From the NCBI RefSeq assembly GCF_048771995.1, contig NC_133028.1, positions 73,701,001 through 73,765,000 of the forward strand: 64,000 bases of DNA, written 5' to 3'. Below the pieces are notes generated by a model. The model saw only the letters and a list, made by a program, of their open reading frames with translations. It made no database searches and was not told where the DNA came from. Below are positions 1 to 60,115 of the stretch, in pieces (position 1 is the first letter of the stretch; every line of letters starts with the position of its first letter). The stretch is from Taeniopygia guttata (taxonomy: Eukaryota; Chordata; Aves; Passeriformes; Estrildidae). The position numbers were made by a program, and so were the translations under genes.

Positions 1-870
1 TCCACTGAACTCACAGAAATGCCATGTAACTTTGCCTCTCTAAACCAGGTGCCACTCATAATAACAGCCAAACCTTAGACTAGGGATGGAACTGGAGACT
101 TGAGCACCCAGGCACACTCAGGAGAGGATAAGTATCTGACTTGCAGGGATTTGGCCCACATAACACTAAAGGCATCCATTTATTTTCCTGTTCTTTCTTC
201 TATCTGACTAAGAGGCTAACAGGAGATCCCCTCCGAGGCAGACTCATTTCAGGTACAACATGTATTCGCATTTCCACTCATACAAAAGACAAGTCAGGGC
301 TGCGGCCTGGGGATGGGAGTAGTGGCCCCCTTCTGCACCCGATGGGGATTTGAATCCCCAGATAGGTGCAAGATAAGTCAAGAGCTACAACCCACAGAGG
401 GGATGGAAGCGAGGTGCAAGGTTGAGACTCCCAAGGAGGGGTTTTTGAGTTCGTTTTAGAGATGAGGATGTCCAAGAAGTGTCTACTTAGGCCAGCTAAA
501 GGAAAAGTGTCTGTTTTGATCACAGTGCTGAGGTGCGCAGGGCAGAGCAGTTCTGGTGTGTGTCCTGTCACTTGTCTCTGGTGCACTCTCTGTTCTTTGG
601 GTCTCTCAGTCCTTTCTTCTCATCAAAATCTCTCCCTGGCCTGTCCCCTTGTTTTTCATGTCCTGTCCTGTGTCACAGGTGTCTGCACATATTTGTCCTA
701 GAGCTGCTCTGCCCTGCTGCTTAGCGTGTAATAGCACAAGTCCTGGGGACTTGAAATTGGTAATGCAGGGTGTAGTTGTGCTCTAGATTGTGTTAGGAGA
801 TTGACATAACATGTTTGGTGGTGTTAAGTTTTCTTGCACCTGTTTGATACTAGTCCTAACTTCCTTTCAG
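1..870 (+). repeat. Leader of the proximal locus copy (truncated by window edge)
   Basis: Bases 1-870 align almost continuously with 48014-48873, the leader of the second array, sharing the opening tccactgaactcacagaa and the cacaagtcctggggac block. The window therefore opens inside the proximal copy; the promoter and first exons seen at 47.4-47.85 kb in the distal copy would lie just upstream. The stretch looks like a diverged exon-6-to-exon-A part of the array unit preceded by unique sequence. No reading frame here can be supported. Confidence 0.75.
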
Positions 871-28464: not shown

Positions 28465-31400
28465 ATGCTGACAGTTCAAATCTGTGGCGGAGAGCGCCAG
28501 TCCTGGGTGAGGATCTTCCCATGAGCAGGTCAGTCATTGTTTGCATTTACCGGGGAATTCTAAATGGTGACTATGTTACAGCGGTGTTTTTGTCTTTATT
28601 TTTAGGAGATCCTGGCAGATAGCAGCAGTCAAGGCCCATTGTGCTAGGTGAGCAGTGGAGAGAAGCTGTTGTTTTTGCTCAGGTTTCGGTTTTTGGTGCG
28701 ACCGTAAGCATCCGTTCTTGTTTGTGTACTTTAGGGAATCCCTTCGGAGTACGCATAGCACCTGTCACCAGCTGGCCAATGGACTGGGTTTCCTGTCCTT
28801 TATGAGACCTCTGGAAGTATAGCGGGACCCTGTGATGAAGCCTTCACATTTTGTATGTCAGGGTCCCACCCTGGTAGCCCAGAGGAGTGGACAAGGAATT
28901 GCGGTGAGTCTGGGATGTAGGGAGGAGGAGCGTGGGTACACTCCAGTTTCAGCAATGCCACGTCAGCCCCTCTCCACTTAACCGTGCTGTACCCATAGGT
29001 GATGCTGTCGGCCTCCAAGCACGCCTGAAGTGTGTGGCCTGGGCACTCTGAGGAGGATGGTGAGTAGCAGATTTACCAGGTTTAGGCCGATGTGCTGTTA
29101 AGACTGTGCACTGATGTTTGGTTTTCTTTCTGTGGGCAGACCAAGAGGTGACAGGTGGAACTTAGCAGGCGGGCAGACGGCCTTCTTCTGCAGCCAGCAG
29201 GGATTGACATCCCCAGATATGTGCAAGATAAGTGGAGTGTTACGACCTACAGAGGGGATGGAAGCGGGGTGCTGGCTTGGGCCTTTCTAGAAGGGTTTTT
29301 TTTTGTCTGTTTTGGGGATGGGGATGTCCAAGAAGCGTTTCCTTAGGCCACCTAAAGGGAAAGTGTCTGTTTTGGTCTCAGTGCTGAGGTTCACAGGGCA
29401 GAGCAGTTCCGGTGTGTGTCCTGTCACTTGTCTCTGGTGCACTCTGTGTTGTTTGGGTCTCTCGGTCCTTTCTTCTCCTCGAGAGCTCTCTCTCCCTGTC
29501 ACGTCCTGTCCTGTGTCACGGGTGTCTGCACATATTTGTCCCGGCCATGCTCTGCCCTGCTGCATAGCCTGTAATAGCACAAGTCCTGGGGACTTGAAAT
29601 TGGTAATGCAGTGTGTAGTTGGGATCTGGATTGTGTAAGGAGATGGCCATAACATGTTCAGTGGTGTTAAGTTGTCCTGCAGCTGTTTGATACTAGTTCT
29701 AACTTCCTTTCAGATGCTGACAGTTCAAATCTGTGGCGGAGAGCGCCAGTCCTGGGTGAGGATCTTCCCATGAGCAGGTCGGTCATTGTTTGCATTTACA
29801 GGGGAATTCTAAATGGTGACTCTGTTACAGCGGTGTTTTTGTCTTTATTTTTAGGAGATCCTGGCAGATAGCAGCAGTCAAGGCCCATTGTGCTAGGTGA
29901 GCAGTGGAGAGAAGCTGTTGTTTTTGCTCAGGTTTCGGTTTTTGGTGCGACCGTAAGCATCCGTTCTTGTTTGTGTACTTTAGGGAATCCCTTCGGAGTA
30001 CGCATAGCACCTGTCACCAGCTGGCCAATGGACTGGGTTTCCTGTGCTTTATGAGACCTCTGGAAGTATAGCGGGACCCTGTGATGAAGCCTTCACATTT
30101 TGTTTGTCAGGGTCCCACCCTGGTAGCCCAGAGGAGTGGACAAGGAATTGCGGTGAGTCTGGGATGTAGGGAGGAGGAGCGTGGGTACACTCAAGTTTCA
30201 GCAATGCCACGTCAGCCCCTCTCCACTTAACCGTGCTGTACCCATAGGTGATGCTGTCGGCCTCCAAGCACGCCTGAAGTGTGTGGCCTGGGCACTCTGA
30301 GGAGGATGGTGAGTAGCAGATTTACCAGGTTTTGGCCGATGTGCTGTTAAGACTGTGCACTGATGTTTGGTTTTCTTTCTGTGGGCAGACCAAGAGGTGA
30401 CAGCTGGAACTTAGCAGGCGGTCAGACGGCCTTCTTCTGCAGCCAGCAGGGGTTGACATCCCCAGATATGTGCAAGATAAGTGGAGTGTTACGACCTACA
30501 GAGGGGATGGAAGCGGGGTGCTGGCTTGGGCCTTTCTAGAAGGGGTTTTTTTGTCTGTTTTGGGGATGGGGATGTCCAAGAAGCGTTTCCTTAGGCCACC
30601 TAAAGGGAAAGTGTCTGTTTTGGTCTCAGTGCTGAGGTTCACAGGGCAGAGCAGTTCCGGTGTGTGTCCTGTCACTTGTCTCTGGTGCACTCTGTGTTGT
30701 TTGGGTCTCTCGGTCCTTTCTTCTCCTCGAGAGCTCTCTCTCCCTGTCACGTCCTGTCCTGTGTCACGGGTGTCTGCACATATTTGTCCCGGCCATGCTC
30801 TGCCCTGCTGCATAGCCTGTAATAGCACATGTCCTGGGGACTTGAAATTAGTAATGCAGTGTGTAGTTGGGATCTGGATTGTGTAAGGAGATGGCCATAA
30901 CATGTTCAGTGGTGTTAAGTTGTCCTGCAGCTGTTTGATACTAGTTCTAACTTCCTTTCAGATGCTGACAGTTCAAATCTGTGGCGGAGAGCGCCAGTCC
31001 TGGGTGAGCATCTTCCCATGAGCAGGTCGGTCATTGTTTGCATTTACAGGGGAATTCTAAATGGTGACTATGTTACAGCGGTGTTTTTGTCTTTATTTTT
31101 AGGAGATCCTGGCAGATAGCAGCAGTCAAGGCCCCCTGTGCTAGGTGAACAGTGGAGAGAAGCTGTTGTTTTTGCTCAGGTTTCGGTTTTTGGTGCGACC
31201 GTAAGCATCCGTTCTTGTTTGTGTACTTTAGGGAATCCCTTCGGAGTACGCATAGCACCTGTCACCAGCTGGCCAATGGACTGGGTTTCCTGTGCTTTAT
31301 GAGACCTCTGGAAGTATAGTGGGACCCTGTGATGAAGCCTTCACATTTTGTATGTCAGGGTCCCACCCTGGTAGCCCAGAGGAGTGGACAAGGAAATGCG

Positions 31401-34400
31401 GTGAGTCTGGGATGTAGGGAGGAGGAGCGTGGGTACACTCAAGTTTCAGCAATGCCACGTCACCCCCTCTCCACTTAACCGTGCTGTACCCATAGGTGAT
31501 GCTGTCGGCCTCCAAGCACGCCTGAAGTGTGTGGCCTGGGCACTCTGAGGAGGATGGTGAGTAGCAGATTTACCAGGTTTAGGCCGATGTGCTGTTAAGA
31601 CTGTGCACTGATGTTTGGTTTTCTTTCTGTGGGCAGACCAAGAGGTGACAGCTGGAACTTAGCAGGCGGGCAGACGGCCTTCTTCTGCAGCCAGCAGGGG
31701 TTGACATCCCCAGATATGTGCAAGATAAGTGGAGTGTTACGACCTACAGAGGGGATGGAAGCGGGGTGCTGGCTTGGGCCTTTCTAGAAGGGTTTTTTTT
31801 GTCTGTTTTGGGGATGGGGATGTCCAAGAAGCGTTTCCTTAGGCCACCTAAAGGGAAAGTGTCTGTTTTGGTCTCAGTGCTGAGGTTCACAGGGCAGAGC
31901 AGTTCCGGTGTGTGTCCTGTCACTTGTCTCTGGTGCACTCTGTGTTGTTTGGGTCTCTCGGTCCTTTCTTCTCCTCGAGAGCTCTCTCTCCCTGTCACGT
32001 CCCCTCGTTTGTCACGTCCTGTCCTGTGTCACGGGTGTCTGCACATATTTGTCCCGGCCATGCTCTGCCCTGCTGCATAGCCTGTAATAGCACAAGTCCT
32101 GGGGACTTGAAATTGGTAATGCAGTGTGTAGTTGGGATCTGGATTGTGTAAGGAGATGGCCATAACATGTTCAGTGGTGTTAAGTTGTCCTGCAGCTGTT
32201 TGATACTAGTTCTAACTTCCTTTCAGATGCTGACAGTTCAAATCTGTGGCGGAGAGCGCCAGTCCTGGGTGAGCATCTTCCCATGAGCAGGTCGGTCATT
32301 GTTTGCATTTACAGGGGAATTCTAAATGGTGACTATGTTACAGCGGTGTTTTTGTCTTTATTTTTAGGAGATCCTGGCAGATAGCAGCAGTCAAGGCCCA
32401 TTGTGCTAGGTGAGCAGTGGAGAGAAGCTGTTGTTTTTGCTCAGGTTTCGGTTTTTGGTGCGACCGTAAGCATCCGTTCTTGTTTGTGTACTTTAGGGAA
32501 TCCTTACGGAGTACGCATAGCACCTGTCACCAGCTGGCCAATGGACTGGGTTTCCTGTCCTTTATGAGACCTCTGGAAGTATAGCGGGACCCTGTGATGA
32601 AGCCTTCACATTTTGTATGTCAGGGTCCCACCCTGGTAGCCCAGAGGAGTGGACAAGGAATTGCGGTGAGTCTGGGATGTAGGGAGGAGGAGCGTGGGTA
32701 CACTCCAGTTTCAGCAATGCCACGTCAGCCCCTCTCCACTTAACCGTGCTGTACCCATAGGTGATGCTGTCGGCCTCCAAGCACGCCTGAAGTGTGTGGC
32801 CTGGGCACTCTGAGGAGGATGGTGAGTAGCAGATTTACCAGGTTTAGGCCGATGTGCTGTTAAGACTGTGCACTGATGTTTGGTTTTCTTTCTGTGGGCA
32901 GACCAAGAGGTGACAGGTGGAACTTAGCAGGCGGGCAGACGGCCTTCTTCTGCAGCCAGCAGGGATTGACATCCCCAGATATGTGCAAGATAAGTGGAGT
33001 GTTACGACCTACAGAGGGGATGGAAGCGGGGTGCTGGCTTGGGCCTTTCTAGAAGGGTTTTTTTTGTCTGTTTTGGGGATGGGGATGTCCAAGAAGCGTT
33101 TCCTTAGGCCACCTAAAGGGAAAGTGTCTGTTTTGGTCTCAGTGCTGAGGTTCACAGGGCAGAGCAGTTCCGGTGTGTGTCCTGTCACTTGTCTCTGGTG
33201 CACTCTGTGTTGTTTGGGTCTCTCGGTCCTTTCTTCTCCTCGAGAGCTCTCTCTCCCTGTCACGTCCCCTCGTTTGTCACGTCCTGTCCTGTGTCACGGG
33301 TGTCTGCACATATTTGTCCCGGCCATGCTCTGCCCTGCTGCATAGCCTGTAATAGCACAAGTCCTGGGGACTTGAAATTGGTAATGCAGTGTGTAGTTGG
33401 GATCTGGATTGTGTAAGGAGATGGCCATAACATGTTCAGTGGTGTTAAGTTGTCCTGCAGCTGTTTGATACTAGTTCTAACTTCCTTTCAGATGCTGACA
33501 GTTCAAATCTGTGGCGGAGAGCGCCAGTCCTGGGTGAGCATCTTCCCATGAGCAGGTCGGTCATTGTTTGCATTTACAGGGGAATTCTAAATGGTGACTA
33601 TGTTACAGCGGTGTTTTTGTCTTTATTTTTAGGAGATCCTGGCAGATAGCAGCAGTCAAGGCCCATTGTGCTAGGTGAGCAGTGGAGAGAAGCTGTTGTT
33701 TTTGCTCAGGTTTCGGTTTTTGGTGGGACCGTAAGCATCCGTTCTTGTTTGTGTACTTTAGGGAATCCCTTCGGAGTACGCATAGCACCTGTCACCAGCT
33801 GGCCAATGGACTGGGTTTCCTGTCCTTTATGAGACCTCTGGAAGTATAGCGGGACCCTGTGATGAAGCCTTCACATTTTGTATGTCAGGGTCCCACCCTG
33901 GTAGCCCAGAGGAGTGGACAAGGAATTGCGGTGAGTCTGGGATGTAGGGAGGAGGAGCGTGGGTACACTCCAGTTTCAGCAATGCCACGTCAGCCCCTCT
34001 CCACTTAACCGTGCTGTACCCATAGGTGATGCTGTCGGCCTCCAAGCACGCCTGAAGTGTGTGGCCTGGGCACTCTGAGGAGGATGGTGAGTAGCAGATT
34101 TACCAGGTTTAGGCCGATGTGCTGTTAAGACTGTGCACTGATGTTTGGTTTTCTTTCTGTGGGCAGACCAAGAGGTGACAGGTGGAACTTAGCAGGCGGG
34201 CAGACGGCCTTCTTCTGCAGCCAGCAGGGATTGACATCCCCAGATATGTGCAAGATAAGTGGAGTGTTACGACCTACAGAGGGGATGGAAGCGGGGTGCT
34301 GGCTTGGGCCTTTCTAGAAGGGTTTTTTTTTGTCTGTTTTGGGGATGGGGATGTCCAAGAAGCGTTTCCTTAGGCCACCTAAAGGGAAAGTGTCTGTTTT

Positions 34401-36008
34401 GGTCTCAGTGCTGAGGTTCACAGGGCAGAGCAGTTCCGGTGTGTGTCCTGTCACTTGTCTCTGGTGCACTCTGTGTTGTTTGGGTCTCTCGGTCCTTTCT
34501 TCTCCTCGAGAGCTCTCTCTCCCTGTCACGTCCTGTCCTGTGTCACGGGTGTCTGCACATATTTGTCCCGGCCATGCTCTGCCCTGCTGCATAGCCTGTA
34601 ATAGCACAAGTCCTGGGGACTTGAAATTGGTAATGCAGTGTGTAGTTGGGATCTGGATTGTGTAAGGAGATGGCCATAACATGTTCAGTGGTGTTAAGTT
34701 GTCCTGCAGCTGTTTGATACTAGTTCTAACTTCCTTTCAGATGCTGACAGTTCAAATATGTGGCGGAGGGCGCCAGTCCTGGGTGAGCATCTTCCCATGA
34801 GCAGGTCGGTCATTGTTTGCATTTACAGGGGAATTCTAAATGGTGACTATGTTACAGCGGTGTTTTTGTCTTTATTTTTAGGAGATCCTGGCAGATAGCA
34901 GCAGTCAAGGCACATTGTGCTAGGTGAGCAGTGGAGAGAAGCTGTTGTTTTTGCTCAGGTTTCGGTTTTTGGTGCGACCGTAAGCATCCGTTCTTGTTTG
35001 TGTACTTTAGGGAATCCCTTCGGAGTACGCATAGCACCTGTCACCAGCTGGCCAATGGACTGGGTTTCCTGTGCTTTATGAGACCTCTGGAAGTATAGCG
35101 AGACCCTGTGATGAAGCCTAAAAATTTTGTATGTCAGGGTCCCACCCTGGTAGCCCAGAGGAGTGGACAAGGAATTGCGGTGAGTCTGGGATGTAGGGAG
35201 GAGGAGCGTGGGTACACTCAAGTTTCAGCAATGCCACGTCACCCCCTCTCCACTTAACCGTGCTGTACCCATAGGTGATGCTGTCGGCCTCCAAGCACGC
35301 CTGAAGTGTGTGGCCTGGGCACTCTGAGGAGGATGGTGAGTAGCAGATTTACCAGGTTTTGGCCGATGTGCTGTTAAGACTGTGCACTGATGTTTGGTTT
35401 TCTTTCTGTGGGCAGACCAAGAGGTGACAGGTGGAACTTAGCAGGCGGGCAGACGGCCTTCTTCTGCAGCCAGCAGGGATTGACATCCCCAGATATGTGC
35501 AAGATAAGTGGAGTGTTACGACCTACAGAGGGGATGGAAGCGGGGTGCTGGCTTGGGCATTTCTAGAAGGGTTTTTTTTGTCTGTTTTGGGGATGGGGAT
35601 GTCCAAGAAGCGTTTCCTTAGGCCACCTAAAGGGAAAGTGTCTGTTTTGGTCTCAGTGCTGAGGTTCACAGGGCAGAGCAGTTCCGGTGTGTGTCCTGTC
35701 ACTTGTCTCTGGTGCACTCTGTGTTGTTTGGACTACTCGGTCCTTTCTTCTCCTCTAGAGCTTTCTCTCCCTGTCACGTCCCCTCGTTTGTCACGTCCTG
35801 TCCTGTGTCACGGGTGTCTGCACGTATTTGTCCTTGCGCTGCTCTGCCATGCTGCATAGGCTGGTGTACTTGCACCAGTCCCGGGGATTTGCAATTTGGC
35901 ATGGGGCATGTAGTTGCGTTCTAAGTTGTATTCCCAGTGTCACACCAGATATTTGGACCTGTTAAGTTATCCTACAGCTGTTTGAATTTTGTCCCAACTT
36001 TGTTTCAG

Positions 36009-36720
36009 ATGCATTAACTCTTTGGCAGAGTACCCCTTGTGGTCAGGGGGTTTCTGTGAGATGGTCAGTCATTGTTTGTGTTTGCAGGGGAAGCCTCAAT
36101 GGTCACTCTCTGTTACAGCATTTTTCTTTGTCTTTAGTTTTAGGATGTCCAGGTTGCTAGGAGCAGTCAAGGCCCAGTGTGCCAGGTGAGCAGTGGACAG
36201 AAGCTGTTGTTCTGGCTCTTGTCTCAATTTCTGTTGCAATTCTAAGCATCTACTCTGGGTTACTTTGTTTTATTGTAGGCAGTCCTCTTGGAAGATGTGT
36301 CTGGTCCGGATGTCTGAAGCCAGGTGGGTGCAAGCTTATGGTCTGGGCGGGTGTACTTTTCGAGTCAGGTGGGTGCTGTTTTCGCGGTATCTCAGTGTGG
36401 GTTTGGTTTTTTTGCTTTGTTTTTTTGCAGGCGCTGTCGCTGCCCTAGGTGTGTGAAGGAACAGAGGCGAGCGGGTGAGTTGGCATTTAGGCATGGTCAC
36501 TCATAGGTGACCGTTATGCAGCAGCATGCTAAGCGTGTACCTTTTCATTTTGCAGGTTTCCTCCAGGCAGCCTGTGGAGTCAAATCGAGTTTTCTGGTGA
36601 GCTGGGGCAGCGGTGTGTCGGAGTTCTGGGGATTCCTCTTTTGGTGGGCACTAATTGCATTTTCTGTTTTGTCTTAGGTACCCCGAGGAGGTGCATAGCT
36701 TAAGTTTGGAACTGGCAGCA
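36009..36720 (+). pseudogene. Proximal terminal exon block, decayed
   Basis: Exon-like segments with AG/GT borders at 36009-36063, 36144-36185, 36279-36323, 36431-36474, 36556-36596 and from 36678 match the distal set at 56552-57336. The first four keep compatible phases; the fourth encodes RRCRCPRCVKEQRRAG with its split codons. The fifth is 41 nt rather than 36 nt, so the frame shifts, and the last exon meets a stop in either entering phase (GCATAG or GCTTAA). The distal counterpart is open throughout. I infer a pseudogenised 3' end of the same gene. It could still be transcribed as non-coding RNA. Confidence 0.6.
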
Positions 36721-36868
36721 CTGAAGCGGATGTAGGGAACATCTCACCGTCCACATCCAACTGACATTGAATTCTGTCTGGTTGTCTTTCAAAAGCTAAG
36801 TGCTGGGACCAGTTGGTGCGAGATGGGGGAAAAACCTTTACTATCACAGGAGGCAATTTGATGTTCGC

Positions 36869-37291
36869 TTAGAGGAGAGGCCCATAGTGGAACGGGCCCC
36901 TCGGGAGCAAAGGGAGAGGGTTTCTCCTCAGCCTCACCAGAGTCTTTGCCGGCCAGGGCAGTTCCGATCCGTCTCCGCATTCTCGTGAGGTTTGCATCAG
37001 CGGCCTTCTACGACTCTTGATGTCATCGTGGATATTTTCACTCGAGGAGCCCGCCTGCATGTCTGGAGCTATAGCCATGGTCACCCCGTAGTCATTGCTT
37101 CCTTCTCCGGACTTACTGAGCTTCTTAGGCTTCCTCTTAAGTGCTTTGGCACTAACATCTTGAGAGGAGTTATCTTTCATCATCATGTGGTATTGCCCTA
37201 GTTCTTTCTGTCCTTTGGCATCATCAGCCCATGGCTCATCCTGGGCTAGGAATCTCGGGTCCATAAGGTGGAACTGCCAGGCAGTTTCCAC
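36869..37291 (-). other. Conserved antisense reading frame of unknown status (proximal)
   Basis: A 140-codon minus-strand frame with a non-repetitive, hydrophilic, Lys/Arg-rich translation (contains SAKALKRKPKKLSKSG). Its counterpart is open over 57405-57722, with many amino acid replacements but no frame change in the shared 105 codons. Just upstream, both copies have an ATG reading MADTAQN (minus strand; ATG at 57912-57910 in the distal copy), followed by a frameshift before the conserved frame. I do not recognise the protein. It may be an old processed gene fragment or chance openness of CpG-rich DNA. Confidence 0.3.
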
Positions 37292-37672
37292 TTGTGTCCG
37301 GTGTCATGTTTTCTGTGTCCACTGATTTGTGTCGTAGGCCTTTGTTACGTCTCCATCCTTTAGCAGCATCATTCTGTGCTGTATCGGCCATATTTTACTC
37401 ACGTACCTTCCTGGATATCTCTTATTCTGGCATCTTTACATTTTCACTTTTTGGGACAGGCAGATGTACATGAGATGTTCTCATCCATCTTTCTTCTCAC
37501 CTTTGGTAGCGCCTTCTTTACCTATGTCATTCTCTTGGACTTCTATACGGAGCATATTAGACGCTCATCACGTGACCGCAGTCATTCTGTAGATTCCGCC
37601 TTCTCAAAGGGTATAGGGTCAAGAATTAATCTTCTGGAGAGTTATTTCAAGTCCTCACTTATATTGTATCTC

Positions 37673-37890
37673 TGTTAGCTTATATTATATGTGCTTATGT
37701 TGTGCCTACCTATGTTGGCTTATCATGTATGTATAAGCCAATATACCTTTATTGTATGTACTTATGTTGTATGTACCTCTGTCGGTTTATATTCTATGTA
37801 CCTATACTTTATGTACCTATGTTGGCTTATATTGTGTGCACTCATATTGTATGTACCTACCTTGCCTTATGTTGTATGAGCCTCTGTTGT
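37673..37890 (+). repeat. Degenerate 40-bp minisatellite (about 5 copies)
   Basis: Repeats of the type tatgtacctatgttggctta followed by tattgtatgtgct. The distal copy of the same array (58161-58735) is expanded to about 14 units and is much more uniform. Confidence 0.7.
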
Positions 37891-38071
37891 GCCAATTACA
37901 ATCGGAGCTGCCCTGCCCCGGCACGTAGTGATGCTTAGGTAGAGCAGTTGTAAAACTTTGCAGTTCATCTGTCTTCTATGGGGTTTTGAGTACAACACTG
38001 ACGGGCCCAGAGTAGGAATAGCTCCTAGCTCTCAGATAGTCAGTCATTGATTGCCTCCCATTGTCTTGTAG

Positions 38072-38172
38072 GTCCCCGGGTCCCTACAGAATTTCCTGGA
38101 ATCTACCATTTGACGTCAAGGAGCAGCAGTCAGAAGATGTGTCGAAGCATATTCTTCAGCGTAGTGTTTCAC
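38072..38172 (+). other. Exon-like segment with lost donor (proximal tail)
   Basis: Preceded by ccattgtcttgtag. It is homologous to the distal exon 58908-59008, but the donor there is cac|gtaagt while here the same position reads cac|ataagg, so a canonical donor has been lost. Stops exist in the frames, so if it is an exon it is non-coding. Confidence 0.4.
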
Positions 38173-38282
38173 ATAAGGGTGGCATTCAGCGTGTCAGCTG
38201 AAGAGAGTGTGAGTGTGATTGTCCGTATCTGTTTGTGAGAAGTTTGTGTGTGCTCCTGTCTGCAGGTCTGAGCGTATGCTGA

Positions 38283-38560
38283 CCGGTGTTAACCCTGTGT
38301 GTATGGCCTTTGCCTTTTAGGTTTTTCAACTCATTTTTGAATTTAGAATAAAAAAATCTGCAGCTGGGGTTTTTTTCCCCCCCACCCCCTGGCTGGGTTT
38401 TTTTCCTCTGTCCTGGCCAGTCCATAAGGTGACGTTCGTCACTAAGGTTTGGCCACAGACCATCCCCAGGCCAGGGTTTTTTTCAAGGAGGATTTTTTGG
38501 AAGCTCCCGGGAGCCACGTTCCCGAGGAACAATAATTTCTGGGGTGTAACGGAGCAGTTG
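38283..38560 (+). repeat. Single copy of the G/C hairpin module
   Basis: Runs from the cctttgccttttag acceptor-like site through agaataaaaaaa, a decayed C/G stem around a T run, and gtctcccggga-type sequence. It matches the 361-364-bp module that is tandemly triplicated at 59103-60115. Here the perfect hairpin has decayed and CpG sites are reduced. Confidence 0.65.
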
Positions 38561-47426: not shown

Positions 47427-47493
47427 CCAATCAGGGGTATATTAACCCCAGGCTTTGCCAAGGGGCTTCATTCCCTCCCTGGGATCAGCTGGG
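47427..47493 (+). promoter_or_regulatory. Candidate promoter and short first exon of the distal locus
   Basis: CCAAT at 47427-47431 and TATATTA at 47438-47444, followed by a good donor ctggg|gtaagag at 47494. The next acceptor is the T-tract AG at 47726-47727. This lies directly upstream of the leader homologous to window base 1, so it would be the promoter of the array-bearing gene. Inferred from motif order only. Confidence 0.4.
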
Positions 47494-47727: not shown

Positions 47728-47848
47728 GAGGAGTGCAACTTCCTGTAGTTCCAGGTTGTGTCAAGTACAACATTTTTACAGCAGATTCATCATGTCACAG
47801 AAGGGATCTGCCCTGTGTCAAAGATGCGGTCTAAGATTGAGGTTTCAG
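47728..47848 (+). CDS. Candidate first coding exon (19 codons, CxxC motif)
   Basis: ATG at 47792 opens MSQKGSALCQRCGLRLRFQ, which runs exactly to a consensus donor (ttt cag|gtgagt at 47849), leaving phase 0. The CQRC pair is the kind of knuckle found in small zinc ribbons, but a second pair was not placed. The next coding exon is unresolved: exon A of the array units needs a phase-1 donor. It may therefore belong to a different transcript from the one proposed for the units. No homology was recognised. Confidence 0.3.
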
Positions 47849-48013: not shown

Positions 48014-48873
48014 CCACTGAACTCACAGAAATGCCATGTAACTTTGCCTCTCTAAACCAGGTGCTACTCATAATAACAGCCAAACCTTAGAGTAGGGATG
48101 GAGCTGGAGACTTGAGCACCCAAGCACACTCAGGAGACAATAAGTATCTGACCTGCTGGGATTTGGCCCACATAACACTAAACTCAACCATTTGTTTTCC
48201 TGTACTTTATTCTAGCTGACTAAGAGGCTAACAGGTGATCCCCTCTGAGGCAGACTTATTTCAGGTCCAACCGGGATTTGCATTTCCAGTCATCCAAAAG
48301 ATAGGTCAGGGCCATGGCCTGAGGATGGGAGCAGTGGCCTCCTTCTGCACCAATGGGGATTTGCATCCCCAGATATGTGCAAGATGAGTCAAGGGCTACA
48401 ATCCACAGAGGGGAAGGAAGAGAGGTACCAGGTTGGGGCTCCCCCGGAGGGGATTTTGAATCAGGTTTGGAGATGGGGATGTCCAAAAAGCGTCCCCTTA
48501 GGCCACCTAAAGGGAAAGTGTCTGTTTTGATCTCAGTGCTGAGGTGCGCAGGGAAGAGCAGTTCTGGTGTGTGTCCTGTCGCTTGTTTCTGGTGCACTCT
48601 TTAGTGTTTGGGTCTCTCGGTCCTTTCTTCTTGTTGAAAGCTCTCTCTCCCTGTCCTGTCACGTCCTATTCTGTGTCACGGGTGTCTGCAGATATTTCTC
48701 CCAGAGCTGCTCTGCCCTGCTGCATAGCCTGTAATAGCACAAGTCCCGGGGACTTGAAATTGGTAATGCAGGGTGTAGTTGCGCTCTAGATTGTTTTAGG
48801 AGCTTGACATAACATGTTTGGTGCTGTTAAGTTGTCCTGCAGCTGTTTGACACTAGTCCTAACTTCCTTTCAG
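48014..48873 (+). repeat. Leader of the distal locus copy, paralogous to 1-870
   Basis: Near-continuous alignment with the window start. The second half (about 48340-48870) is itself a diverged exon-6-to-exon-A part of the array unit: gcaccaatggggatttgcat, the ctaaagggaaagtgtctgtt block and the cctggggacttgaaattgg block. Confidence 0.75.
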
Positions 48874-48928
48874 ATGCAGACAGTTCAAATCAGTGGCAGA
48901 GGGCCCCAACCCTGGGGCGGTTGTTGCC

Positions 48929-49701
48929 ATGAGCAGGTCATTGTTTGTATTTGCAGGCAGAGCTGAAATGGTGACTGTGTTACAGCAGTGTTCTTTGCCT
49001 TTAATTTTAGGAGGTCCAGGCAGATAGCAGCAGTCAAGGCCAAGTGTCCTAGGTGAGCAGTGGACAGAAGCAGTTGGTTTTACTCAGCTTTCAGTTTTGG
49101 TGCAACTGTAAGCATCCATCCTCATTTTTGTGCTTTAGGGAATCGGCTCGGAGTACGCATACCTCTGTCACCAACTGGCTGATGGACCAGGTTTCATGCA
49201 CTTGTGATCTCGCTGGAAGTATTACAGGACCCTGTGACGGAGCCTTCCGATTTTGCATTTCAAGGTCTCATCTGGGTAGTCCCGAGGAATGGCCGAGGAA
49301 TTGCAGTGAGTCGGGGAGGTAGGGAGGGGGAGTGAGAGTCCACTTGAGTTTCAGCAATGCCATGTCGCCTTGTCTCCATTTAACCTAGGTGTACCCTGCA
49401 ATGATGGCATCAGAATCCAAGCAGACCTGAAGCGTGCAGGTCAAGAACCAGGGCATTCTGAGGAGAATGGTGAGTAGCAGAGCTATCATGTTTTGTCCGA
49501 TGTGCTGTTAAGACTGTGCACTTATGTTTGGTTTTCTTCCTGTTGGCAGACCAAGAGGTGACAGCTCGAACTTACCAGACAGGCAGACGGCATCCTTCTG
49601 CAGCCAACAAGGATTTGCGTCCCCAGAATGCATGCAAGATAAGTCGAGGGTTACGACCCACAGAGGGGATGGAAGCGGGGTGGTGGGTTGGGACTTTCTA
49701 G
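48929..49701 (+). CDS. Array-2 unit 1: candidate five-exon gene, 149 codons
   Basis: Proposed exons 48929-48936, 49011-49052, 49139-49305, 49389-49469 and 49550-49701 (TAG). They add up to 450 nt, all introns are GT-AG, and the split codons match (phase 2, 2, 1, 1). The ATG has G at -3 (gccatgagc). The second exon encodes RSRQIAAVKAKCPR across its borders; the third is cysteine-bearing (SCTC, GPC, RFC); the fourth holds VPCNDG; the last is basic and ends EAGWWVGTF. Not recognised. Donor 1 (cag|gtcatt) is weak. Unit 1 differs from the others in the last exon (TARTYQ, ANKDLRPQ) and has one G fewer before the ATG, which would break a frame entering from exon A upstream. No signal peptide or membrane segment is obvious. 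Confidence 0.4.
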
Positions 49702-50205
49702 AAGGGGTTTTTGTGTCTGTTTTAGAGATGGGGATGTCCAAGAAGCGTCTCCTATAGTCCACCTAAAGGGAAAGTGTTTCTTTTGATCTCAGTGCTGAGG
49801 TGCACAGGGCAGAGCAGTTCCGGTGTGTGTCCTGTCACTTGTGTCTGGTGCACTCTTGGTTGTTTGGGTCTCTTGGTCTTTGCAGACCTTCTTCTTGTGC
49901 AAACCTCTCTCTCCCTCTCCTGTCCTGTCGTTTGTCACGTCCTGTCCTGCATCACGGGTGCCTGCACGTATTTCTCCCGGAGCTGCTCTGCCCTGCTGCA
50001 TAGCCTGTAATAGCCCAATTCCTGGGGACTTGAAATTTGTAATGCAGGGTGTAGTTGCGCTCTAGATTGTTTTAGGAGCTTGACATAACATGTTTGGTGC
50101 TGTTAAGTTGTCCTGCAGCCATGTGACACTAATCCTAACTTCCTTTCAGATGCAGACAGTTCAAATCAGTGGCAGAGGGCCCCAACCCTGGGGGCGGTTG
50201 TTGCC

Positions 50206-50978
50206 ATGAGCAGGTCATTGTTTGTATTTGCAGGCAGAGCTGAAATGGTGACTGTGTTACAGCAGTGTTCTTTGCCTTTATTTTTAGGAGGTCCAGGCAG
50301 ATAGCAGCAGTCAAGGCCAAGTGTCCAAGGTGAGCAGTGGACAGAAGCAGTTGGTTTTACTCGGCTTTCAGTTTTGGTGCGCCTGTAAGCATCCATCCTC
50401 ATTTTTGTGCTTTAGGGAATCGGCTCGGAGTACGCATACCTCTGTCAACAACTGGCTGATGGACCAGGTCTCATGCACTTGTGATCTCGCTGGAAGTATT
50501 ACAGGACCCTGTGACGGAGCCTTCCGATTTTGCATTTCAAGGTCTCATCTGGGTAGTCCGGAGGAATGGCCGAGGAATTGCAGTGAGTCGGGGAGGTAGG
50601 GAGGGGGAGTGAGAGTCCACTTGAGTTTCAGCAATGTCATGTCGCCTTGTCTCCATTTAACCTAGGTGTACCCTGCAATGATGGCATCAGAATCCAAGCA
50701 GACCTGAAGCGTGCAGGTCAAGAACCAGGGCATTCTGAGGAGAATGGTGAGTAGCAGAGCTATCATGTTTTGTCCGATGTGCTGTTAAGACTGTGCACTT
50801 ATGTTTGGTTTTCTTCCTGTTGGCAGACCAAGAGGTGACAGCTGGAACTTACCAGACCGGCAGACGGCATCCTTCTGCAGCCAACAGGGATTTGCATCCC
50901 CAGAATGCATGCAAGATAAGTCGAGGGTTACGACCCACAGAGGGGATGGAAGCGGGGTGGTGGGTTGGGACTTTCTAG
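50206..50978 (+). CDS. Array-2 unit 2: candidate five-exon gene, 149 codons (N type)
   Basis: Exons 50206-50213, 50288-50329, 50416-50582, 50666-50746 and 50827-50978 give 450 nt with matching phases and stop TAG. Here the frame is also open upstream through the rest of exon A (from 50150, entering in phase 1, DADSSNQWQRAP onward), so the protein could be longer if an upstream exon is joined. Exon D carries TSVNNW. The last exon reads QEVTAGTYQTGRRHPSAANR and aligns loosely with the distal terminal exon (57215), which suggests each unit is a duplicate of the whole 3' half of a gene. Function unknown; expression not shown. Confidence 0.4.
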
Positions 50979-51482
50979 AAGGGGTTTTTGTGTCTGTTTT
51001 AGAGATGGGGATGTCCAAGAAGCGTCTCCTATAGTCCACCTAAAGGGAAAGTGTTTCTTTTGATCTCAGTGCTGAGGTGCACAGGGCAGAGCAGTTCCGG
51101 TGTGTGTCCTGTCACTTGTGTCTGGTGCACTCTTGGTTGTTTGGGTCTCTTGGTCTTTGCAGACCTTCTTCTTGTGCAAACCTCTCTCTCCCTCTCCTGT
51201 CCTGTCGTTTGTCACGTCCTGTCCTGCATCACGGGTGCCTGCACGTATTTCTCCCGGAGCTGCTCTGCCCTGCTGCATAGCCTGTAATAGCCCAATTCCT
51301 GGGGACTTGAAATTTGTAATGCAGGGTGTAGTTGCGCTCTAGATTGTTTTAGGAGCTTGACATAACATGTTTGGTGCTGTTAAGTTGTCCTGCAGCCATG
51401 TGACACTAATCCTAACTTCCTTTCAGATGCAGACAGTTCAAATCAGTGGCAGAGGGCCCCAACCCTGGGGGCGGTTGTTGCC

Positions 51483-52255
51483 ATGAGCAGGTCATTGTTT
51501 GTATTTGCAGGCAGAGCTGAAATGGTGACTGTGTTACAGCAGTGTTCTTTGCCTTTATTTTTAGGAGGTCCAGGCAGATAGCAGCAGTCAAGGCCAAGTG
51601 TCCAAGGTGAGCAGTGGACAGAAGCAGTTGGTTTTACTCGGCTTTCAGTTTTGGTGCGCCTGTAAGCATCCATCCTCATTTTTGTGCTTTAGGGAATCGG
51701 CTCGGAGTACGCATACCTCTGTCACCAACTGGCTGATGGACCAGGTTTCATGCACTTGTGATCTCGCTGGAAGTATTACAGGACCCTGTGACGGAGCCTT
51801 CCGATTTTGCATTTCAAGGTCTCATCTGGGTAGTCCGGAGGAATGGCCGAGGAATTGCAGTGAGTCGGGGAGGTAGGGAGGGGGAGTGAGAGTCCACTTG
51901 AGTTTCAGCAATGTCATGTCGCCTTGTCTCCATTTAACCTAGGTGTACCCTGCAATGATGGCATCAGAATCCAAGCAGACCTGAAGCGTGCAGGTCAAGA
52001 ACCAGGGCATTCTGAGGAGAATGGTGAGTAGCAGAGCTATCATGTTTTGTCCGATGTGCTGTTAAGACTGTGCACTTATGTTTGGTTTTCTTCCTGTTGG
52101 CAGACCAAGAGGTGACAGCTGGAACTTACCAGACCGGCAGACGGCATCCTTCTGCAGCCAACAGGGATTTGCATCCCCAGAATGCATGCAAGATAAGTCG
52201 AGGGTTACGACCCACAGAGGGGATGGAAGCGGGGTGGTGGGTTGGGACTTTCTAG
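51483..52255 (+). CDS. Array-2 unit 3: candidate five-exon gene, 149 codons (T type)
   Basis: Same exon plan shifted by 1277 bp (51483-51490, 51565-51606, 51693-51859, 51943-52023, 52104-52255). It differs from unit 2 in exon D, where TSVTNW replaces TSVNNW, together with a silent GTC-to-GTT change in the next valine codon. The exon order, borders and stop are the same. The near-identity means recent homogenisation, so openness here is not independent evidence of selection. Confidence 0.4.
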
Positions 52256-52759
52256 AAGGGGTTTTTGTGTCTGTTTTAGAGATGGGGATGTCCAAGAAGC
52301 GTCTCCTATAGTCCACCTAAAGGGAAAGTGTTTCTTTTGATCTCAGTGCTGAGGTGCACAGGGCAGAGCAGTTCCGGTGTGTGTCCTGTCACTTGTGTCT
52401 GGTGCACTCTTGGTTGTTTGGGTCTCTTGGTCTTTGCAGACCTTCTTCTTGTGCAAACCTCTCTCTCCCTCTCCTGTCCTGTCGTTTGTCACGTCCTGTC
52501 CTGCATCACGGGTGCCTGCACGTATTTCTCCCGGAGCTGCTCTGCCCTGCTGCATAGCCTGTAATAGCCCAATTCCTGGGGACTTGAAATTTGTAATGCA
52601 GGGTGTAGTTGCGCTCTAGATTGTTTTAGGAGCTTGACATAACATGTTTGGTGCTGTTAAGTTGTCCTGCAGCCATGTGACACTAATCCTAACTTCCTTT
52701 CAGATGCAGACAGTTCAAATCAGTGGCAGAGGGCCCCAACCCTGGGGGCGGTTGTTGCC

Positions 52760-53532
52760 ATGAGCAGGTCATTGTTTGTATTTGCAGGCAGAGCTGAAAT
52801 GGTGACTGTGTTACAGCAGTGTTCTTTGCCTTTATTTTTAGGAGGTCCAGGCAGATAGCAGCAGTCAAGGCCAAGTGTCCAAGGTGAGCAGTGGACAGAA
52901 GCAGTTGGTTTTACTCGGCTTTCAGTTTTGGTGCGCCTGTAAGCATCCATCCTCATTTTTGTGCTTTAGGGAATCGGCTCGGAGTACGCATACCTCTGTC
53001 AACAACTGGCTGATGGACCAGGTCTCATGCACTTGTGATCTCGCTGGAAGTATTACAGGACCCTGTGACGGAGCCTTCCGATTTTGCATTTCAAGGTCTC
53101 ATCTGGGTAGTCCGGAGGAATGGCCGAGGAATTGCAGTGAGTCGGGGAGGTAGGGAGGGGGAGTGAGAGTCCACTTGAGTTTCAGCAATGTCATGTCGCC
53201 TTGTCTCCATTTAACCTAGGTGTACCCTGCAATGATGGCATCAGAATCCAAGCAGACCTGAAGCGTGCAGGTCAAGAACCAGGGCATTCTGAGGAGAATG
53301 GTGAGTAGCAGAGCTATCATGTTTTGTCCGATGTGCTGTTAAGACTGTGCACTTATGTTTGGTTTTCTTCCTGTTGGCAGACCAAGAGGTGACAGCTGGA
53401 ACTTACCAGACCGGCAGACGGCATCCTTCTGCAGCCAACAGGGATTTGCATCCCCAGAATGCATGCAAGATAAGTCGAGGGTTACGACCCACAGAGGGGA
53501 TGGAAGCGGGGTGGTGGGTTGGGACTTTCTAG
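52760..53532 (+). CDS. Array-2 unit 4: candidate five-exon gene, 149 codons (N type)
   Basis: Exons 52760-52767, 52842-52883, 52970-53136, 53220-53300 and 53381-53532, matching phases, stop TAG. Exon D is the N type, as in units 2 and 6. No lesion was seen in any proposed exon or GT-AG border. Confidence 0.4.
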
Positions 53533-54036
53533 AAGGGGTTTTTGTGTCTGTTTTAGAGATGGGGATGTCCAAGAAGCGTCTCCTATAGTCCACCTAAAGG
53601 GAAAGTGTTTCTTTTGATCTCAGTGCTGAGGTGCACAGGGCAGAGCAGTTCCGGTGTGTGTCCTGTCACTTGTGTCTGGTGCACTCTTGGTTGTTTGGGT
53701 CTCTTGGTCTTTGCAGACCTTCTTCTTGTGCAAACCTCTCTCTCCCTCTCCTGTCCTGTCGTTTGTCACGTCCTGTCCTGCATCACGGGTGCCTGCACGT
53801 ATTTCTCCCGGAGCTGCTCTGCCCTGCTGCATAGCCTGTAATAGCCCAATTCCTGGGGACTTGAAATTTGTAATGCAGGGTGTAGTTGCGCTCTAGATTG
53901 TTTTAGGAGCTTGACATAACATGTTTGGTGCTGTTAAGTTGTCCTGCAGCCATGTGACACTAATCCTAACTTCCTTTCAGATGCAGACAGTTCAAATCAG
54001 TGGCAGAGGGCCCCAACCCTGGGGGCGGTTGTTGCC

Positions 54037-54809
54037 ATGAGCAGGTCATTGTTTGTATTTGCAGGCAGAGCTGAAATGGTGACTGTGTTACAGCAGTGTT
54101 CTTTGCCTTTATTTTTAGGAGGTCCAGGCAGATAGCAGCAGTCAAGGCCAAGTGTCCAAGGTGAGCAGTGGACAGAAGCAGTTGGTTTTACTCGGCTTTC
54201 AGTTTTGGTGCGCCTGTAAGCATCCATCCTCATTTTTGTGCTTTAGGGAATCGGCTCGGAGTACGCATACCTCTGTCACCAACTGGCTGATGGACCAGGT
54301 TTCATGCACTTGTGATCTCGCTGGAAGTATTACAGGACCCTGTGACGGAGCCTTCCGATTTTGCATTTCAAGGTCTCATCTGGGTAGTCCGGAGGAATGG
54401 CCGAGGAATTGCAGTGAGTCGGGGAGGTAGGGAGGGGGAGTGAGAGTCCACTTGAGTTTCAGCAATGTCATGTCGCCTTGTCTCCATTTAACCTAGGTGT
54501 ACCCTGCAATGATGGCATCAGAATCCAAGCAGACCTGAAGCGTGCAGGTCAAGAACCAGGGCATTCTGAGGAGAATGGTGAGTAGCAGAGCTATCATGTT
54601 TTGTCCGATGTGCTGTTAAGACTGTGCACTTATGTTTGGTTTTCTTCCTGTTGGCAGACCAAGAGGTGACAGCTGGAACTTACCAGACCGGCAGACGGCA
54701 TCCTTCTGCAGCCAACAGGGATTTGCATCCCCAGAATGCATGCAAGATAAGTCGAGGGTTACGACCCACAGAGGGGATGGAAGCGGGGTGGTGGGTTGGG
54801 ACTTTCTAG
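54037..54809 (+). CDS. Array-2 unit 5: candidate five-exon gene, 149 codons (T type)
   Basis: Exons 54037-54044, 54119-54160, 54247-54413, 54497-54577 and 54658-54809, matching phases, stop TAG. Exon D is the T type, as in units 1 and 3, so units alternate strictly along the array. Confidence 0.4.
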
Positions 54810-55313
54810 AAGGGGTTTTTGTGTCTGTTTTAGAGATGGGGATGTCCAAGAAGCGTCTCCTATAGTCCACCTAAAGGGAAAGTGTTTCTTTTGATCTCAG
54901 TGCTGAGGTGCACAGGGCAGAGCAGTTCCGGTGTGTGTCCTGTCACTTGTGTCTGGTGCACTCTTGGTTGTTTGGGTCTCTTGGTCTTTGCAGACCTTCT
55001 TCTTGTGCAAACCTCTCTCTCCCTCTCCTGTCCTGTCGTTTGTCACGTCCTGTCCTGCATCACGGGTGCCTGCACGTATTTCTCCCGGAGCTGCTCTGCC
55101 CTGCTGCATAGCCTGTAATAGCCCAATTCCTGGGGACTTGAAATTTGTAATGCAGGGTGTAGTTGCGCTCTAGATTGTTTTAGGAGCTTGACATAACATG
55201 TTTGGTGCTGTTAAGTTGTCCTGCAGCCATGTGACACTAATCCTAACTTCCTTTCAGATGCAGACAGTTCAAATCAGTGGCAGAGGGCCCCAACCCTGGG
55301 GGCGGTTGTTGCC

Positions 55314-56086
55314 ATGAGCAGGTCATTGTTTGTATTTGCAGGCAGAGCTGAAATGGTGACTGTGTTACAGCAGTGTTCTTTGCCTTTATTTTTAGGAGGT
55401 CCAGGCAGATAGCAGCAGTCAAGGCCAAGTGTCCAAGGTGAGCAGTGGACAGAAGCAGTTGGTTTTACTCGGCTTTCAGTTTTGGTGCGCCTGTAAGCAT
55501 CCATCCTCATTTTTGTGCTTTAGGGAATCGGCTCGGAGTACGCATACCTCTGTCAACAACTGGCTGATGGACCAGGTCTCATGCACTTGTGATCTCGCTG
55601 GAAGTATTACAGGACCCTGTGACGGAGCCTTCCGATTTTGCATTTCAAGGTCTCATCTGGGTAGTCCCGAGGAATGGCCGAGGAATTGCAGTGAGTCGGG
55701 GAGGTAGGGAGGGGGAGTGAGAGTCCACTTGAGTTTCAGCAATGTCATGTCGCCTTGTCTCCATTTAACCTAGGTGTACCCTGCAATGATGGCATCAGAA
55801 TCCAAGCAGACCTGAAGCGTGCAGGTCAAGAACCAGGGCATTCTGAGGAGAATGGTGAGTAGCAGAACTATCATGTTTTGTCCGATGTGCTGTTAAGACT
55901 GTGCACTTATGTTTGGTTTTCTTCCTGTTGGCAGACCAAGAGGTGACAGCTGGAACTTACCAGACCGGCAGACGGCATCCTTCTGCAGCCAACAGGGATT
56001 TGCATCCCCAGAATGCATGCAAGATAAGTCGAGGGTTACGACCCACAGAGGGGATGGAAGCGGGGTGGTGGGTTGGGACTTTCTAG
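55314..56086 (+). CDS. Array-2 unit 6: candidate five-exon gene, 149 codons (N type)
   Basis: Exons 55314-55321, 55396-55437, 55524-55690, 55774-55854 and 55935-56086, matching phases, stop TAG. Exon D is N type, but the SPEE codons use CCC GAG as in unit 1 rather than CCG GAG as in units 2-5 (silent). One intronic change (gcagaactatc) is private. The sequence after the stop diverges from about 56385, where the terminal block begins. Confidence 0.4.
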
Positions 56087-56551
56087 AAGGGGTTTTTGTG
56101 TCTGTTTTAGAGATGGGGATGTCCAAGAAGCGTCTCCTATAGTCCACCTAAAGGGAAAGTGTTTCTTTTGATCTCAGTGCTGAGGTGCACAGGGCAGAGC
56201 AGTTCCGGTGTGTGTCCTGTCACTTGTGTCTGGTGCACTCTTGGTTGTTTGGGTCTCTTGGTCTTTGCAGACCTTCTTCTTGTGCAAACCTCTCTCTCCC
56301 TCTCCTGTCCTGTCGTTTGTCACGTCCTGTCCTGCATCACGGGTGCCTGCACGTATTTCTCCCAGAGCTGCTCTGCCCTGCTTCACAGCCTGCTGTAATT
56401 GCACCAGTCCTAGAGATTTGCAGTTTTGCGTAGGGCATGTAGTTGCATTCAAGATAGTATTCCTTAATTTACACTAGATGTTTTGACTTGTTAAGTTATT
56501 AACAGGTTATTAACAAACAGCTGTTTGAATATTCTCCCAACTCTCTTTCAG

Positions 56552-57336
56552 ATGCAGATGGATTAACTCTGTGGCAGTGTGCCCTGCTGTGGTCAGGGGG
56601 TTTCCTGAGAAGGTCAGTCATTGTTTGTGTTGGTAGGGGAAGCCTACCTGGTGACTGTGTTACAGCGCTTGTCTTTGTCTTTAATTTTAGGAATTCCAGG
56701 CAGCTAGGAGCAGTCAAGGCCCAGTGTGCCAGGTGAGCAGTGAACAGAAGCTGTTGTTCTGGCTCTTGTCTCAATTTCTGCTGCAATTCTAAGCATCCAC
56801 TCTTGGTTACTTTGTTTTATTGTAGGCACTCATCTTGCAAGATGGCTCTGGTCCAGATATCCGAGGCCAGGTGGGTGTAATTGTCAGGTCCGCGTGGGTG
56901 TACTTTTTGGTTCAGGGGGATGGTGTTTTCACAGTATCTCAGTGTGGGTTTTTTTGCTTTGTTTTTTTGCAGGTGCTGTCACTGCCCTAGGTGTGTGAAG
57001 GAACAGAGGCGAGCGGGTGAGTTGGCATTTAGGCACGGTGACTCATAGGTGTCCATTACGCAGCAGCATGTTAAGCGTGTACTTTTTCATTTTGCAGGTA
57101 TCCTCCAGGCAGCCTGCGGAGTCAAGATTTCAGGTGAGCCGGAGCAGCGGTGTGTAAGAGTTCCGGGGATTCCTCTTTTGGTGGGCACTAGTTCAATTTT
57201 CTGTTTTATCTTAGGTACTGTGAAGAGGCACGTAGCTGAAGTTTGGAAACGGCAGCACCAAAGCGGACGTAGAGACCGTGTCGCCGCCCGCATCCGACTG
57301 ACATCGGATTCCATCCGGTCGTCTTGCAAAAGCTAA
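56552..57336 (+). CDS. Distal terminal exon block: six in-phase exons ending in a stop
   Basis: Exons 56552-56612, 56691-56732, 56826-56870, 56973-57016, 57098-57133 and 57215-57336 (TAA at 57334-57336). Every junction is GT-AG and every split codon matches (entering phase 1, then 2, 2, 2, 1, 1). Translation features: NSRQLGAVKAQCAR, homologous to the unit exon; CCHCPRCVKEQRRAG, a dense cysteine/histidine cluster that could bind zinc; and a final Arg/Lys-rich segment (KRQHQSGRRDRVAARIRL) that suggests nucleic-acid or nuclear binding. The first in-frame ATG inside the block is at 56842, which would give 76 residues; otherwise the block is the 3' end of a longer protein continuing from array exons. 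Not recognised. The proximal copy (36009-36.7k) is frameshifted, so this copy looks like the functional or younger one. Confidence 0.5.
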
Positions 57337-58907: not shown

Positions 58908-59008
58908 GTTCCTGGGTCCCTACAGAATTTCCTGGAATCTACCAATTGACATCGAGGAGCCGCGGTCATAAGATGCGTCGAAGCATATCTTTCGGCGTAG
59001 TGTTTCAC
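58908..59008 (+). ncRNA. Candidate non-coding exon with strong splice sites
   Basis: Acceptor ccattgtcttgcag at its left and donor cac|gtaagt at its right; 101 nt; homologous to 38072-38172, where the donor is lost. It would lie downstream of the stop at 57336, so it may belong to a non-coding or alternative 3' transcript. Confidence 0.4.
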
Positions 59009-59102: not shown

Positions 59103-60115
59103 GTTGAGTGGTTCTAACCTTGTGTGTATGGCCTTTGCCTTTCAGGTGTTTCAACTCATTTTTAAATTTAGAATAAAAAATCCCCAGCCGGGGGGTTTTT
59201 TTTTTTTTCCCCCCGGCTGGGTTTTTTTTTCCTCGGTCCCGGCCGGTCAGCGAGGCGACGTTCATCGCCAAAGTTAGGGCGCGGACCGTCCCGGGACCGG
59301 GGTTTTCGTCAGGCAGGATGATTTTTTTGGTAGTCTCCCGGGAACCACGTTCCCGAGGAGCGTCGCGAGTGCGTGTTGTCGGCCAGGTCTTAGCCGAGCG
59401 GTTGAGATGAGAGCGGGGGTGGGTTTGTGTGTAAGCTGAAGGAGGGCTGTGTGTGTGTGTGTGTGTGTTGAGTGGTTCTAACCTTGTGTGTATGGCCTTT
59501 GCCTTTCAGGTTTTTCAACTCATTTTTAAACTTAGAATAAAAAATCCCCAGCCGGGGGTTTTTTTTTTTTTCCCCCCGGCTGGGTTTTTTTTTCCTCGGT
59601 CCCGGCCGGTCAGCGAGGCGACGTTCATCGCCAAAGTTAGGGTGCGGACCGTCCCGGGACCGGGGTTTTTGTCAGGCAGGAGGATTTTTTTGGGAGTCTC
59701 CCGGGAACCACGTTCCCGAGGAGCGTCGCGAGTGCGTGTCGTCTGCCAGGTCTTAGCCGAGCGGTTTAGATGAGAGTGGGGGTGGGTTTGTGTGTAAGCT
59801 GAAGGAGGGCTGTGTGTGTGTTTGTGTGTTGAGTGGTTCTAACCTTGTGTGTATGGCCTTTGCCTTTCAGGTTTTTCAACTCATTTTTAAACTTAGAATA
59901 AAAAATCCCCAGCCGGGGGGTTTTTTTTTTTTCCCCCCGGCTGGGTTTTTTTTTCCTCGGTCCCGGCCGGTCAGCGAGGCGACGTTCATCGCCAAAGTTA
60001 GGGTGCGGACCGTCCCGGGACCGGGGTTTTTGTCAGGCAGGAGGATTTTTCGGGAGTCTCCCGGGAACCACGTTCCCGAGGAGGGACGATGACTCGGGTA
60101 TCACAAAGCAGTTCC
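59103..60115 (+). repeat. Tandem triplication of the hairpin module (364, 361 and ~288 bp)
   Basis: Starts of gttgagtggttctaacc at 59103, 59467 and 59828. Each copy holds an acceptor-like tttgcctttcag, AATAAA, a C/G hairpin around a T12-13 loop, a GC-rich CpG segment, and the CGGGAAC-CAC-GTTCCCG inverted repeat. The proximal locus has one decayed copy (38283-38560). Confidence 0.85.
59183..59221 (+). other. Perfect 13-bp stem with a T13 loop (three copies)
   Basis: CCCAGCCGGGGGG, then T13, then CCCCCCGGCTGGG, followed by another T run. Repeated at about 59547-59583 (one G fewer) and 59907-59945 (T12). Placed a few bases after an AATAAA, it would form a very stable RNA hairpin. The role is unknown. 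Confidence 0.7.

Follow-up and report, generated by a model that had tools for sequence, protein, structure and literature searches.

A subtelomeric macrosatellite of the zebra finch as a possible in-frame exon cassette within one gene

Introduction

This work concerns a tandem array of six 1277-bp (base pair) units near what looks like a chromosome end of the zebra finch, Taeniopygia guttata. The window, i.e., the whole stretch of DNA that was analysed, has 64,000 nucleotides (nt) (contig NC_133028.1, positions 73,701,001 to 73,765,000 of the forward strand). The array, named array 2, is part of a putative gene B (approximately 47.4-59.2 kb), and a related array 1 is part of gene A, a disabled paralogue. 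With a confidence slightly above even, array 2 is considered here as an internal, tandemly amplified, in-frame block of exons in one subtelomeric songbird gene.

Human LPA offers a described case of this kind. Its KIV-2 repeat is an intragenic tandem repeat in which each copy comprises exons and introns and adds a segment to the protein (PMC4378929). The copies are 98-100% alike in exons and single-copy exons flank the array (PMC4378929). The PRR20 macrosatellite of human 13q21.1 has one three-exon gene per 6.6-kb monomer (PMC3018141). In birds, the HINT1W satellite of the chicken W chromosome has a 5,648-bp unit with a complete gene, in 52 copies (PMC9974502).

Gene B would share with LPA KIV-2 the presence, within one gene, of tandem exon-bearing copies flanked by single-copy exons; the KIV-2 unit has 5.5 kb and two exons and encodes a kringle (PMC4378929), whereas the gene B unit has 1.28 kb and four or five exons. 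Unlike KIV-2 as described there, the array of gene B is near a telomere repeat, no known domain was found in it, and it is known from sequence alone. D4Z4/DUX4 and RS447 have one open reading frame (ORF) per monomer, encode other proteins and are not known to have an exon cassette running on in frame. D4Z4 is subtelomeric, as is array 2. D4Z4/DUX4 and RS447 resemble array 2 as coding macrosatellites (PMC3018141). PRR20 resembles it in having a multi-exon coding frame in a macrosatellite monomer (PMC3018141), but the gene B unit has neither AATAAA nor ATTAAA and its frame crosses from unit to unit. HINT1W is likewise a bird gene amplified as a tandem satellite, but another gene and on the W chromosome (PMC9974502). 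The best-supported comparison is that gene B would work like LPA KIV-2 (PMC4378929) rather than like the gene-per-monomer array of PRR20 (PMC3018141). If confirmed, this would give birds an equivalent of LPA KIV-2, located near a chromosome end, at which recombination might alter protein length in frame; its broken 28-unit paralogue would be a natural control for coding limits on a macrosatellite.

Results

The window carries both arrays and ends with about 0.8 kb of AGGGTT repeats, like a vertebrate chromosome end. By DNA match, the six units of array 2 cover 48880-56392. Array 1 has 28 unit starts, and the 27 units that were measured have 1248-1266 bp. Between the arrays, single units share about 80-82% identity. 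The flanks of gene A and gene B are 88% identical upstream and 84% identical over the first 1.7 kb downstream; since they are homologous on both sides, the entire locus was duplicated, beyond the satellite alone. The original prediction, made from the letters of the sequence, had seen here a subtelomeric multicopy gene rather than plain satellite. Its multicopy character, going beyond plain satellite, was borne out, and the telomere repeat adjoining the arrays agrees with the subtelomeric position.

The same prediction gave each unit a self-contained five-exon gene. The five segments it proposed (8, 42, 167, 81 and 152 nt, each between an AG and a GT) are indeed present in all six units over 48929-56086; together they make 450 nt, with 149 codons and a TAG stop, so that every monomer of array 2 has a complete ORF, and the cysteine motifs named are found in that frame. 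The units are as follows.

48874..50149, + strand: unit 1, with exons 48874-48936 (63 nt, one base short), 49011-49052, 49139-49305, 49389-49469 and 49550-49582 (or through to the stop ending at 49701)
50150..51426, + strand: unit 2, with exons 50150-50213, 50288-50329, 50416-50582, 50666-50746 and, as exon 5, 50827-50859 (or through to the stop ending at 50978)
51427..52703, + strand: unit 3, exon layout as in unit 2, open
52704..53980, + strand: unit 4, exon layout as in unit 2, open
53981..55257, + strand: unit 5, exon layout as in unit 2, open
55258..56551, + strand: unit 6, the last one, exon layout as in unit 2, open; the unit match stops at 56392

Compared with unit 2, units 3, 4 and 5 have 2, 0 and 2 differing sites (unit 4 is thus unit 2 over again), unit 6 has 5 differences in 1129 bases compared and unit 1 is 98.9% identical. 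Because units 2-6 are almost identical, the six units count for about one independent case.

Both differences of unit 5 from unit 2 are shared with unit 3. Over 50150-56392 the units alternate in two types (2, 4 and 6 vs. 3 and 5) at two sites of exon 3, which suggests duplication in two-unit steps.

The exon 1 of 8 nt is the end of a longer exon of 64 nt (63 in unit 1) with a strong acceptor (96th percentile of the AG sites of the window), and the start codon of the 149-codon ORF falls within it. Exon 5 has 33 nt up to its splice point. The exons of a unit sum to 387 nt, i.e., 129 codons, in five of the six units (units 2-6) and to 386 nt in unit 1; without exon 5 the sum is 354 nt (118 codons), also a multiple of 3. 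The frame passes through units 2-6 and the exons on either side of them in phase: E2 and the 19-nt E3 lead into these units, and six downstream exons (Ta-Tf) carry the frame on to a TAA. Splice sites were scored with weights that approximate the vertebrate consensus, GC donors being penalised by construction. The features around the array are listed below.

47438..47445, + strand: TATA-like element TATATTAA, possible core promoter of gene B (pattern match only)
47728..47848, + strand: exon E2; an ATG at 47792 begins MSQKGSALCQRCGLRLRFQ; acceptor and donor both at percentile 100.0
48216..48234, + strand: exon E3, 19 nt (LTKRLT + G), in phase to unit exon 1
56552..57336, + strand: terminal exons Ta 56552-56612, Tb 56691-56732, Tc 56826-56870, Td 56973-57016, Te 57098-57133 and Tf 57215-57336 (TAA at 57334-57336)
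58908..59008, + strand: possible exon of the 3' untranslated region (acceptor percentile 98.1, donor 97.8)
59146..59177, + strand: possible 3' exon with AATAAA at 59172; it recurs with a 363-bp repeat (AATAAA at 59536 and 59897)

The acceptor and donor of E3 are at percentiles 91.2 and 96.5, and the acceptors and donors of Ta-Te and the acceptor of Tf range from 94.9 to 99.9. E2, E3, units 2-6 and Ta-Tf form an open chain of 786 amino acids (aa) ending in TAA. Other chains are also open: 731 aa when exon 5 is skipped, 141 aa with zero units, and 871 aa from the ATG of unit 1 through units 2-6. The C-terminal part is basic and contains Cys (23 Lys or Arg and 9 Cys in 116 residues); as a guess, it would fit a nucleic-acid-binding or nuclear protein. 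Neither array contains AATAAA or ATTAAA, and an AATAAA comes after each of them, at 38347 and 59172. For promoters of the TATA type, the pattern has zero matches inside array 2; the nearest ones (46804 and 47438) are both upstream.

From the layout, the phases and the open frames observed, promoter use, splicing, translation and function are predicted as follows. Transcription would start near the TATA-like element at 47438; E2 and E3 would be spliced to the units, and each unit to the next one via exon 5, or from exon 4 directly to the next exon 1. The last unit would be joined to the six terminal exons and the RNA would end at the poly(A) signals from 59172 on. Each unit would contribute 129 codons, or 118 if exon 5 is skipped, all in one frame. 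As whole codons are added, unequal crossing-over between units would change the length of the protein and keep the frame. The ORF of the original prediction would be one unit of the gene B frame, read beyond the splice point of exon 5 to a stop, and its five-exon gene is probably a fragment.

In the 3' part of gene B, a 40-bp repeat (11.8 copies) was observed at 58178-58647. The 363-bp tandem repeat (2.8 copies, 59084-60083) duplicates the possible poly(A) exon with its AATAAA.

Gene A, the disabled paralogue

204..38352, + strand: gene A, paralogue with 28 units and a terminal part, from an E3 remnant to the first AATAAA (38347); its borders are approximate, the window beginning within the gene

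In all 28 units of array 1, exon 3 has 168 or 169 nt (not 167) and the joined exons 1-3 contain a stop; exon 1 has 64 nt in all of them. The E3 of gene A has lost both the AG before it and the GT after it. Stops and frameshifts in the same exons of related units, which had been named beforehand as a sign against a gene, are thus found throughout array 1 and are missing from two Lonchura striata protein models (P0001 and P0002, see below). There are 28 units in the disabled copy as against six in the open one; as a single locus, this is an observation rather than a test. A further, rather doubtful reading is that a songbird gene beside the telomere codes for a repeat protein to which every macrosatellite unit contributes 129 aa, copy number thus fixing its length. 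With its frame lost, the neighbouring paralogue went up to 28 units, so the need to stay coding may keep such arrays small.

A 40-bp repeat (3.2 copies) is also present in gene A, at 37750-37878.

In the unit frame, the ratio of nonsynonymous to synonymous differences (pN/pS) between unit 2 of gene B and three of the 28 units of array 1 is 0.65, 0.59 and 0.55, with Fisher p-values of 0.127, 0.017 and 0.007 (the units are non-independent and the values uncorrected). The two other frames give 0.79-1.08 in the same three comparisons. Position counts, i.e., differences in exons and introns, were obtained on four of the 28 units.

Open frames expected by chance

When splice sites can be chosen freely, 149 codons are reached by 79 of 1000 units resampled with a Markov-1 model (9 of 150 in another run). 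The longest spliced ORF of a real unit has 225 codons, a length reached by 5 of the 1000 resamples, and its path differs both from that of the original prediction and from that of the gene B model. The longest spliced ORF on the reverse strand of an array 2 unit has 78 codons. Two of the disabled array 1 units still yield spliced ORFs of 164 and 91 codons, and stop-to-stop ORFs of 113-161 aa, mostly spacer, are found on both strands of array 1. The length of an ORF by itself therefore says little, given that resamples, disabled units and spacer give similar lengths; the match of the finch models to the frame and the in-phase flanking exons are stronger evidence. When one fixed frame is imposed on Markov-1 resamples, the 809-nt single-unit chain is open in 12 of 200000, and a stretch of 387 nt in 1600 of 200000. 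With splice sites again chosen freely, the longest path in the gene B sequence has 425 codons, which none of 200 gene-length resamples reaches.

Protein relatives and database searches

Five protein relatives were found, all of them uncharacterised NCBI models from two finches: LOC144248667, LOC144248149 and LOC144246306 (Lonchura striata), and LOC101234119 and LOC115495198 (Taeniopygia guttata). The first search gave the three L. striata models and one of T. guttata; the second search added P0005, also of the zebra finch. These models are automatic, were picked for being open, and were compared as protein only. They have a homologous repeat unit, and P0001-P0003 keep the frame without gaps, but they are short. 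P0001 of L. striata aligns with the 149-codon product over 125 residues (84% identity), and P0002 of the same species over 107 residues (83%). The zebra finch P0003 has 95 gapless residues, 75% identical to exons 3-5 plus exon 1 of the next unit, i.e., it crosses the unit-to-unit junction. P0004 has an insertion of 25 residues that looks like a retained intron 3. Against array 1, most pieces of P0005 have few gaps and 58-77% identity, and the long gapped ones have 34-48%; against array 2 its identity is 42-52%. The exon pieces of P0003 are 61-71% identical to array 2. Translated spacer served as the neutral reference, and no clear difference emerged. The five models cut the family differently, so such arrays can mislead automatic annotation.

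No Pfam family matches the 149-aa product at the gathering score, and the 270-aa single-unit product has one match below the cut-off (E 3.1). Neither product has a match in the PDB up to E 10. By these searches, gene B is a member of neither the LPA/kringle family nor any other Pfam-A family. No Rfam element is found at the gathering score among 4227 families. With no Pfam family at that score and five relatives all uncharacterised, the earlier statement that no family could be recognised stands. No paper was found on LOC101234119 or LOC115495198, and no description of the family occurs in the titles and abstract beginnings of the matches listed for the finch, subtelomere, macrosatellite and tandem-exon literature.

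Alternative explanations

Several observations weigh against an exon cassette within gene B. Unit 1 has a 1-nt deletion in exon 1 (a shorter G run), and because this exon is one base short, the chain of E2, E3 and units 1-6 stops at codon 45. After the splice point of exon 5, 33 of 34 units have GC and the remaining one TC, never GT; joining exon 4 to the next exon 1 would keep the frame and bypass the GC donor. The exon 1 donor, GTCATT, is weak (4.8 bits). Of the gene-length resamples, 12/200 reach 270 codons with free choice of splice sites; the path of 425 codons uses, in places, splice sites unlike those of the model, and the disabled gene A analogue still has 278 codons (78 for the reverse strand of gene B). 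Since free-splice resamples and the gene A analogue also give long paths, the openness of the chain is suggestive, short of decisive. None of the five models contains a multi-unit product or the C-terminal part, and P0003 and P0005 are known here as models alone. The 786-aa product has zero homologues among the 7993 candidates sharing most words with it (words from the first 500 residues), the 270-aa product matched only P0005, over 16% of its length, and neither search gave a relative of the C-terminal part. The predicted structure, computed from P0001 and the other homologues except P0005 (three of four), has no fold: the mean pLDDT (predicted local distance difference test) is 34.8, and values are below 50 everywhere. 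Evidence for selection is weak as well. The terminal exons have a pN/pS of 1.06 in the chain frame vs. 0.78 and 0.79 in the others, and exons diverge more than introns in four of five comparisons (three of four without CpG sites). Non-CpG differences in exons vs. introns are 46/359 vs. 124/823, 62/340 vs. 104/816 and 64/344 vs. 108/825 for the units, and 39/298 vs. 34/405 for the terminal part. The frame may be under weak constraint, evolving fast or decaying, and the data favour none of the three.

One alternative is a noncoding or dying gene, in which the array belongs to a spliced transcript and the frame of gene B is a remnant of a protein no longer made. This is doubtful, though it has the terminal pN/pS, the exon divergence and the frameshift of unit 1 on its side, together with the state of gene A (28 units disabled, E3 splice sites lost) and with P0005, which by eye is a frameshifted model. 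Five of the six gene B units and all six terminal exons, however, are open in one frame, the pN/pS of the unit frame is below that of both other frames in three of three comparisons, and P0001, P0002 and P0003 keep the frame, even if such models are picked for openness. It is unlikely that the units are separate genes, each giving a short mRNA (about 450 coding nt), like D4Z4, RS447 and PRR20: neither array has AATAAA or ATTAAA, array 2 has no TATA-like match, and exon 1, on account of its strong acceptor, is an unlikely first exon. The frame moreover continues in phase on both sides, and P0003 fits the unit-to-unit junction. What speaks for one gene per unit is that all six units have an open frame from the ATG onwards, that P0001 begins at the same ATG and reads beyond the exon 5 splice point, like the 149-codon ORF, and that P0005, judged by eye, seems to have both its ends in spacer; the latter looks like unit-level transcription and, with its apparent frameshift, suits unit-level or aberrant transcripts better than gene B. 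A plain satellite with a chance open frame is very improbable. The resampled units that reach 149 codons, the disabled array 1 unit with 164 codons and the spacer ORFs of similar length speak for it; against it, the frame and the junctions are common to the finch models, without gaps, and exons outside the repeat carry the frame on in phase.

Other features of the window

Between gene A and gene B, positions 46540-47085 contain, by eye only, sequence like the long terminal repeat of an endogenous retroelement. At 40794-41116, shortly before a short interstitial telomeric repeat, there is a repeated 36-bp block with GCCGCCAT and CACGTGA motifs, which we take to be YY1-like and E-box motifs, respectively. 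This block is CpG-rich; the observed/expected CpG ratio is 1.17 over 40400-41050.

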